From Acidobacteriota bacterium (GTDB lineage Bacteria; Acidobacteriota; Terriglobia; UBA7540): a stretch of DNA of 55,022 nucleotides. How positions within the stretch are numbered: position 1 is the stretch's first letter; each line of letters begins with the position of its first letter. Shown one piece after another: positions 7,358 through 16,857 of this stretch. The notes under the pieces are model-generated. The model was not told where the DNA came from and made no database searches. It saw nothing but the letters and a program-made list of their open reading frames with translations. The stretch is taken from positions 1-55,022 of the forward strand of contig CADDZC010000018.1 in the NCBI GenBank assembly GCA_902812365.1, read 5' to 3'. A program made the translations under genes and the position numbers.

Positions 7358-8459
7358 TCACTTCGGCACCGTCCGGCGCGAGAGCAGGTAGGCCTTAATG
7401 AACGGATCAATATCGCCATCGAGCACGCGCTCCGCGTCGCCCACTTCTAACTTGGTTCGATTGTCTTTCACCAGGCGGTAGGGATGCAGAACGTAAGACC
7501 TGATCTGACTCCCAAAGTCGATATCCGCTTTAGAAGCCTCCAGCTTCCGCGACTCTTCTCGCTTCTTTTCGAGCTCCCATTCGTAGAGCTTCGACCGCAG
7601 TATCTTCAGCGCCATTTCACGATTGCGGTGCTGCGAGCGTTCATTCTGACACTGCGCGACGAGCCCGGTCGGGATATGCGTAATCCGCACGGCCGAATCA
7701 GTGGTGTTGACATGCTGGCCGCCTTTACCAGCGGACCGATACGTCTCAACTCGCAATTCTTCCGGCTTGATGTCAATGTTGATGTTGTCATCGATCTCCG
7801 GGCTGACAAAAACTGAGGCGAATGACGTGTGTCGCCGGCCAGCCGAATCGAAGGGCGAGATGCGAACCAGGCGATGGACGCCGATTTCGGAGGTCAGCAA
7901 GCCATACGCGTAATCGCCCGCCACGTTGAAGGTTGCCGATTTCAGGCCCGCCTCCTCCCCGGCCTGATAGTCCATCAATTTAAACCTAAAACCGCGACGC
8001 TCAGCCCATCGACGGTACATGCGCAGCAGCATCTCGGCCCAATCCTGTGATTCGGTACCCCCTGCGCCCGGGTGGATCGTGACAATGGCATTGAGGCGGT
8101 CGTTCTCCCCGGCGAGCATCGTCTCCGTCTCCAGCCGGTCAATCTCTCGACGCAACCGCGCCAACTCCGCCCTGAAGTCGGCTTCAACGTTCTCGCCTTC
8201 GCGCGCGAGCTCCAGGTAGGCCTCCACGTCGGCCAGACGCTGAGCAAGTTTCTCATCCGCCTCCAATACCTGTGCAAGGCGCCGCCGATCCGACAACGCT
8301 TTTTGCGAGGCTTCCGGTTTATCCCAGAAGTCAGGCCGAGCAAGCTGTCTTTCTATGGCTTCCAGTTCTCGACGCCGATTAGGAGCGTCAAAGAAAGCTC
8401 CTAAGATCTGCGGCGCGACGCCGCAATTCTTGTAATTCCCGTTCTAAGTCTTCAATCAC
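7358..8459 (-). CDS. prfB: Peptide chain release factor 2 (programmed +1 frameshift)
   Basis: Release factor 2 recognises UGA and UAA stop codons and triggers peptide release. The frame opens at a GTG (8459-8457), preceded by GGAGGGAG, and runs 23 codons to an in-frame TGA at 8390-8388. Skipping one base (8390) continues without interruption to 7358, giving 366 residues, the normal RF2 length. The stop-recognition motif SPF is at about residues 201-203 and the catalytic GGQ at about 246-248 (SAGKGGQHVN). Ribosome shifting at the UGA autoregulates RF2 level. The gene is last in a long minus-strand block behind lnt. A reading starting at a TTG at 8296 would lose the N-terminal domain. Confidence 0.95.
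8387..8402 (-). promoter_or_regulatory. prfB programmed +1 frameshift site
   Basis: Reading on the minus strand, an internal Shine-Dalgarno-like AGGAG is followed by CTTTGAC, the classic RF2 shift heptamer (CTT slippery codon, TGA stop, C context). The AGGAG element pairs with 16S rRNA to promote the slip when RF2 is scarce. The frame joins perfectly after the shift. Confidence 0.93.
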
Positions 8460-16121: not shown

Positions 16122-16264
16122 CTTGTTAGCCGAGCATTTCGCCGCGTCCCGACCTTGAAACCCTCGGGAAAGTGGCGGCAACCGCAAGCCCGCTGGACAC
16201 GCCAACAGGAAATGGCTAGACTCTTTTTTGAAACCTGAGATTGGCGTGAGTGGGAGGTTTGGCA

Positions 16265-16441
16265 ATGACGCATTGTCCGGAATGTGAGGCCGTGCTTGAC
16301 ATGGAAGAGGACGACGTCGAGGAGGGCCAAACGCTAAACTGCCCGGAGTGCGACGCTGAGTTGGAGGTGGTGAGCACGAACCCCGTCGAACTAGACGTGG
16401 TTTCGGGCGGGGATGAGGAGGAGGAAGGAGAAGACTGGTAG
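16265..16441 (+). CDS. LysW-like amino-group carrier-type zinc mini-protein
   Basis: A 58-residue very acidic protein with two CPEC zinc knuckles (residues 4-7 and about 26-29) followed by ELEVVSTNPVELDV. This is the layout of LysW/ArgW carriers, which hold alpha-aminoadipate or glutamate on a C-terminal glutamate during lysine or arginine synthesis. The family normally ends in EDWGE; this protein ends in GEDW and lacks the final Gly-Glu, so the usual attachment residue is missing. The ATG at 16265 has GGGAGG nine bases upstream. No lysine or arginine biosynthesis gene is nearby. Family membership looks clear; carrier function is doubtful. Confidence 0.8.
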   Translation: MTHCPECEAVLDMEEDDVEEGQTLNCPECDAELEVVSTNPVELDVVSGGDEEEEGEDW

Positions 16442-16443
16442 CG

Positions 16444-16857
16444 ATGCGACCGGTAGCGACGGGATGCCTCGAGTTGGGCAGGCCGGTGGAGGGCAACATT
16501 TCGCCACTCGGGATTTTGATCCTGCTCGCTGCGGCGGCGTGGACTGTTTTTCCGCGGCACGCCGACGCCAAGCAGAAGCAACCGGTCTCAAGGACGATTA
16601 AAGGATCGGTGCTTGACGAGCAGGATCATCCCATTGTGGGCGCGACAGTCGAGCTGACCGACAAGGAGAGCGGCAAGAAGTTCGATATTTACTCTCAAGC
16701 CGGGGGCCAGTACGAATTCTCCGGACTGGAATTCACCCACGACTATGAGGTCCAGGCGCGCTACCAGGGGCGCACGTCCGAGATTCGGCACGCCAGTTCT
16801 CTGGATGATTCGCGGATCCTGGTGCTGAATTTGAGGATTCCTTCCGGTGGACCTTAG
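16444..16857 (+). CDS. Small exported carboxypeptidase-regulatory-like (beta-sandwich) protein
   Basis: A 137-residue protein with an N-terminal hydrophobic export segment (about residues 22-36) and one CarboxypepD_reg-like beta-sandwich (about 48-135): RTIKGSVLDEQDHPIVGATV, then GGQYEFSGL. Such domains appear as stalk or adhesion modules on secreted and TonB-linked proteins. It begins three bases after the LysW-like stop, so the two are probably co-transcribed. A GTG at 16486 would give a cleaner signal peptide and may be the true start. Confidence 0.72.
   Translation: MRPVATGCLELGRPVEGNISPLGILILLAAAAWTVFPRHADAKQKQPVSRTIKGSVLDEQDHPIVGATVELTDKESGKKFDIYSQAGGQYEFSGLEFTHDYEVQARYQGRTSEIRHASSLDDSRILVLNLRIPSGGP

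Follow-up and report, generated by a model that had tools for sequence, protein, structure and literature searches.

A LysW-like zinc-ribbon protein lacking the attachment glutamate and its ligase, coupled to an exported beta-sandwich gene in Terriglobia

LysW is familiar as a carrier of cargo, with its last residue as the business end. In the stretch of acidobacterial DNA analyzed here (55,022 nt, hereafter the window), a LysW-like gene encodes a protein without that residue, which raises the question of what such a protein is kept for. A carrier that has outlived its ligase, has lost its business-end residue and is still selected offers a natural test of what LysW does without cargo. The gene and its surroundings comprise the following features, in which homologues ending in EDWGE are called canonical and all others orphans.

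16194 to 16222, forward strand: sigma-70-like promoter match upstream of the gene pair, weak (one found, 0.4 expected)
16265 to 16441, forward strand: LysW-like zinc-ribbon protein of 58 aa ending in GEDW, from Pfam and structure matches
16274 to 16351, forward strand: zinc ribbon with Cys4, Cys7, Cys26 and Cys29, all four conserved in 107/107 orphan and 13/13 canonical homologues examined
16403 to 16438, forward strand: acidic tail, residues 47-58, with a C-terminal Trp replacing ...EDWGE, from sequence comparison and the structural model
16444 to 16857, forward strand: exported carboxypeptidase-regulatory-like (beta-sandwich) protein, the next gene of the unit, matching PF13620; its true start may be further downstream

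The translation of the LysW-like gene is MTHCPECEAVLDMEEDDVEEGQTLNCPECDAELEVVSTNPVELDVVSGGDEEEEGEDW, followed by the stop codon, and its C-terminus reads EEEEGEDW. We preferred the start at 16265 over an upstream GTG at 16250, given a GGGAGG about 9 nt 5' of the ATG and the M-x-x-C start of the homologues. The initial annotation of the sequence had called the protein LysW-like and its attachment glutamate missing, and both statements are borne out. The protein matches Pfam Zn_ribbon_LysW (PF21344) at an E-value of 9.5e-13 (48 bits, above the cut-off of 27), the solved chains nearest to it are 3wwl (Thermus LysW) and 5k2m (Thermococcus LysW), and it ends in W with no GE after it, so that the terminal Glu of EDWGE expected of a LysW/ArgW member is absent. 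It scores 29.2 bits against the NCBI LysW equivalog TIGR01206, below the cut-off of 53.2, and 25.9 bits against NF041070, the archaeal LysW/ArgW domain model, under the cut-off of 75. An AlphaFold2 model computed with 30 aligned sequences has a mean pLDDT of 77, the tail being mostly below 50, and a Foldseek search with this model gave LysW chains or LysW-complex entries as its seven best matches, with no E-value passing 0.001. The window protein has in common with the LysW/ArgW proteins of Thermus thermophilus (3wwl, 3wwn, 5eio) and Thermococcus (5k2m) the zinc-ribbon fold, the four Cys, the acidic character, the LEVV...P.EL core and an EDW near the end, but differs from them in lacking the terminal GE, in its longer acidic tail and in coming from a genome without LysX. 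That genome, 96.7% complete, contains a single LysW-like gene; a second, canonical LysW elsewhere in it was ruled out, since none was found.

Of 151 relatives, 127 have a homologue. The search matched 130 places, of which 121 were read (the window and 120 fetched loci) and nine were left out (G130, G122, G119, G093, G107, G132, the second G109 copy, G111 and G114). One of the LysW-like genes read, a second copy in G002 (L089, contig C203) with an f6-type core and a tail that breaks off at the contig end, is probably contamination or part of a chimeric contig and was left out of the counts; 120 proteins were used. EDWGE stands at the end of 13 of these, namely 12/12 of family f8 and 1/3 of family f9. 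In the other 107, the orphans, it never does, and the tails are variable and acidic. Of the 32 homologues examined in f1, the family of the window gene, 22 end in W, an EDWGE end is absent, and each of the 22 Trp in this family is the very last residue; in f5, a W end occurs in 6/18 and a WK, WR or WN end in 9/18. Trp is present in 40/107 orphans and in 40/40 is confined to the last three residues. Families f6 and f10 are mostly without a terminal aromatic (an aromatic in the last four residues in 1/23 and 2/22, respectively). The orphans have the acidity of the tail in common; a near-terminal Trp characterises f1, f2, f5 and f9 and is not general. Since the W end is shared by 22 of 32 homologues of the same family, a local sequencing error near 16438 was ruled out; the comparison of acidobacterial LysW C-termini proposed in the initial annotation shows the W end to be a feature of the lineage and not an oddity of one genome.

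The same 151 genomes were searched with a LysX query from f8 (TIGR02144, above cut-off). LysX was found at an E-value below 1e-140 in 13 of them (1.7e-142 or better), and these are exactly the 13 genomes that have an EDWGE LysW; none of the genomes that supplied the 107 examined homologues without EDWGE has such a match. Next in rank, at 5.6e-27 and 1.7e-26, are matches in two f4 genomes without LysW. The LysX on contig C608 of G109 (569-1420) has one in-frame TGA that was read through. A LysX/ArgX-type ligase elsewhere in the window genome, which had also been suggested for checking, was not found, the best match in this 96.7% complete assembly being 1.1e-4 and 22 bits. According to PMC10433800, haloarchaeal ArgW with the E54A mutation causes arginine auxotrophy, and EDWGE is read by the GSWGR motif of ArgX; on these two grounds the C-terminal Glu is taken to be needed. 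It is very unlikely that the window protein is still a carrier whose tail carboxylate is loaded by an unrecognised ligase. The tails are indeed rich in Glu and Asp, and a few orphans of other classes still end in E (e.g. DWEE, EDWDE). Nevertheless, no LysX-type match exceeds 22 bits in the window genome, the W-ending tails are without the residue shown to be necessary in ArgW (PMC10433800), and genes for ArgJ (acetylated arginine) and dapA (DAP lysine) are present. The window genome has one argB above cut-off, dapA above cut-off and ArgJ; therefore, there are other routes to lysine and arginine. The f8 genomes sampled likewise have dapA and ArgJ, but the LysX-positive f9 genome G046 has no dapA above cut-off, and the loss of LysX is therefore not simply tied to dapA. 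For Deinococcus proteolyticus, PMC3356886 ties the loss of aminoadipate genes to the gain of a DAP cluster. A LysW annotation in Acidobacteriota does not imply an aminoadipate or a LysW-arginine route.

The exported beta-sandwich gene that had been reported to adjoin the LysW-like gene does so, at 16444-16857 (PF13620), beginning 2 nt past the stop. The accompanying claim that the locus is away from lysine genes stands only in part: no LysX, LysY or LysZ gene adjoins the window gene, but the same exported genes lie inside the lysW-lysX-lysY-lysZ operon of relatives. In canonical f8, lysW is followed by lysX, by the ArgC-like lysY, by two exported beta-sandwich genes, the second of which has a carboxypeptidase-regulatory domain, and finally by lysZ. 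At three f8 loci (L119:1248-2408, L113:3260-4354 and L136:1369-2568), the exported protein encoded in the lys operon combines its carboxypeptidase-regulatory domain with a fused alpha/beta hydrolase. Using an HMM grown from the exported protein of the window, we found a beta-sandwich gene directly 3' and on the same strand in 106/107 orphan loci across ten families, the sole exception being L117 (G106), and two or more such frames in tandem at 36 orphan loci; genes further out from the pair vary by family. At canonical loci the gene is adjacent in 0/13, and in 11/13 it lies at most 5.5 kb downstream, beyond lysX-lysY, the other two being contig ends. From the canonical operon order and the pairing in orphan loci it follows that the orphan loci correspond to the canonical operon minus lysX, lysY and lysZ. 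The exported neighbour is thus an old member of the lys operon that is still coupled to the orphan. LysW genes without an EDWGE end, without LysX in the genome and with an exported beta-sandwich gene directly 3' form a group that we name the Terriglobia acidic-tail LysW orphans; the window gene has all three features. The fold and the family are known. What appears to be new is a class-wide form of LysW that lacks the cargo residue and the ligase and is coupled to exported genes; a search of titles and abstracts in open-access literature, and hence a weak one, found no description of LysW without LysX.

We then considered whether the coding sequence itself is maintained. Pooled Nei-Gojobori dN/dS values, which are rough since synonymous sites are near saturation (pS ~0.5-0.6), are 0.16, 0.12, 0.26, 0.26 and 0.19 for the globular part in the orphan families f1, f6, f10, f5 and f7, respectively, and 0.21 in canonical f8. 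For the tail they are 0.31-0.67 in these five orphan families and 0 in f8. Every one of the 120 LysW proteins has the four Cys, Gly21 and Pro40. Because the orphan zinc ribbon is, by these sequence comparisons, under purifying selection, the protein presumably still works. A decaying relic without function could account for the missing lysine-operon partners and for family f4, which is without any LysW, but this is extremely unlikely in view of the purifying selection, the invariant Cys and the presence of the gene in 127/151 relatives. The lysW frame might also be kept mainly as an expression device, through which the exported beta-sandwich gene 3' of it is translated or transcribed. The pair order kept in all but one of the orphan loci and the 2-nt gap in the window would fit this. 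However, a leader frame needs neither a zinc-ribbon dN/dS of 0.12-0.26 nor four invariant Cys nor conservation of the terminal Trp, and the partner gene differs in other classes, and we regard this alternative as quite improbable.

The conversion of a canonical locus can be followed within family f9. In G046, a lysW ending in EDWGE is followed by lysX and lysY. The flanking genes of G046 recur in G054 and G061, but there lysX and lysY are absent, lysW leads straight to exported genes, and the tails end in EEWEG or EEEWEG. Like the window, these two loci combine a LysW, in the absence of LysX, with exported beta-sandwich genes 3' of it, but they differ from the window in their end and in a core that is still canonical-looking. 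On the rpoB tree (40 genomes, unrooted), G046, G054 and G061 are placed as sisters, two changes are required to explain the LysX-positive state, of which one falls inside f9, and the f9 orphans represent a conversion separate from that of the window lineage. Since this tree is unrooted, it does not itself tell gain from loss; we infer loss as the simpler reading because canonical LysW-LysX is widespread elsewhere. With the only 42 usable columns of the LysW gene tree, a single ancient clade of orphans is not rejected (p-AU 0.757), and the order of loss outside f9 is therefore not proven. In family f4 (e.g. G041, G056 and G063), sister to f8 on the rpoB tree, there is no LysW-like gene, the carrier having vanished with the ligase.

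Across the phylum, a LysW-like gene is present in 166/396 genomes, and LysX at an E-value below 1e-70 in 43 genomes by hand count. Tails outside Terriglobia were read at 55 loci from the 166 LysW-bearing genomes. Each of these loci that was read as EDWGE had LysX in the fetched stretch, and 0/39 orphan-type loci did. One protein, L306, ends in EDWGQ with LysX just outside its fetched stretch, and L273 gave no LysW reading with the pattern used. A W, Y or F end occurs in 12/39 of the other-class orphans, aromatics being again enriched at the tail end. Both kinds of LysW occur together in f39 (G188, G377), f34 (G301, G341, G424) and f69 (G269). The coexistence of orphans with a working LysW in other classes is as compatible with an old paralogue as with repeated decay. 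It is thus possible, if somewhat doubtful, that two kinds of LysW have long existed in Acidobacteriota and that most Terriglobia kept the acidic-tail kind and lost the LysX-linked carrier, as the coexisting copies, the unrejected single orphan clade and the orphan-type genes at 39/55 other-class loci would allow. Against this, the Terriglobia orphan precedes the same exported genes as the canonical lys operon, which points to an origin in place, and f9 shows direct conversion at one locus. Outside the phylum, Chloroflexota also have both kinds: L048 combines EDWGE with LysX-LysY-LysZ, and L044, L046, L047 and L049 have other endings (DDW in L044) and no adjacent LysX. Plasmid records gave two LysW matches only, weak and partial.

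The explanation we favour, to which we give about an even chance, is that the window gene encodes a LysW that has ceased to carry substrate and yet has been kept, probably repurposed and most likely as a cytosolic docking protein. Repurposing had been raised in the initial annotation, and we judge it likely, the attachment Glu and LysX being gone and the zinc ribbon being under purifying selection; the specific zinc or peptide-tag role suggested along with it gained no support. The ancestor would have been the first gene of a lysW-lysX-lysY-(exported beta-sandwich)-lysZ operon, from which lysX, lysY and lysZ would have been lost in the lineage of the window genome. The C-terminal Glu, required to hold the amino group of the substrate, would then have been free to go, and the tail would have turned into a variable acidic stretch, in f1 mostly Trp-ended. 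The folded zinc ribbon may now present a disordered acidic tail with a terminal aromatic to a partner, whose basic groove the tail would bind non-covalently, with no covalent transfer; expression of the orphan would be tied to the exported beta-sandwich gene 3' of it. We infer this docking role because of the composition of the tail, its conserved end and the retained fold. In bacterial SSB and T7 gp2.5, a disordered acidic tail with a terminal aromatic docks into basic partners. These proteins have a different fold from the orphan LysW, and the proposed docking would resemble theirs in the acidic tail and the terminal aromatic.

A candidate partner is suggested by the neighbours of the other-class orphans. 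LarE is a sacrificial sulfur transferase and uses ATP to activate a carboxylate. Its gene lies directly 3' of the orphan, on the same strand, in 22 genomes from 10 families, within 500 nt in 18/22 and at 779-1161 nt in the rest. Other-class loci with an orphan and a LarE-type sulfur transferase include L275, L293-L298, L303-L305, L220, L222, L229, L230 and L239, and at such loci a response-regulator gene often diverges upstream. In Acidobacteriota, LysW may have a widespread second life with an acidic, often aromatic-ended tail used for non-covalent docking and, in the boldest version, the orphan could be a partner or protein substrate of LarE-type chemistry, not of aminoacyl transfer; we put this forward as an unlikely but attractive idea. 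LarE as an obligate partner is weakened by its presence over cut-off in 133/151 relatives, that is, in most genomes with or without the orphan. The orphan-bearing G080, G106, G071, G127 and G130 gave no LarE match, and in the window genome LarE is on contig C22 and the orphan LysW on C18.

Elsewhere in the window, on the reverse strand at 8370-8410, prfB (peptide chain release factor 2, TIGR00020, 473 bits) is split into a short leader and a main frame at AGGAGCTTTCTTTGAC, an arrangement resembling the classic programmed +1 frameshift motif.
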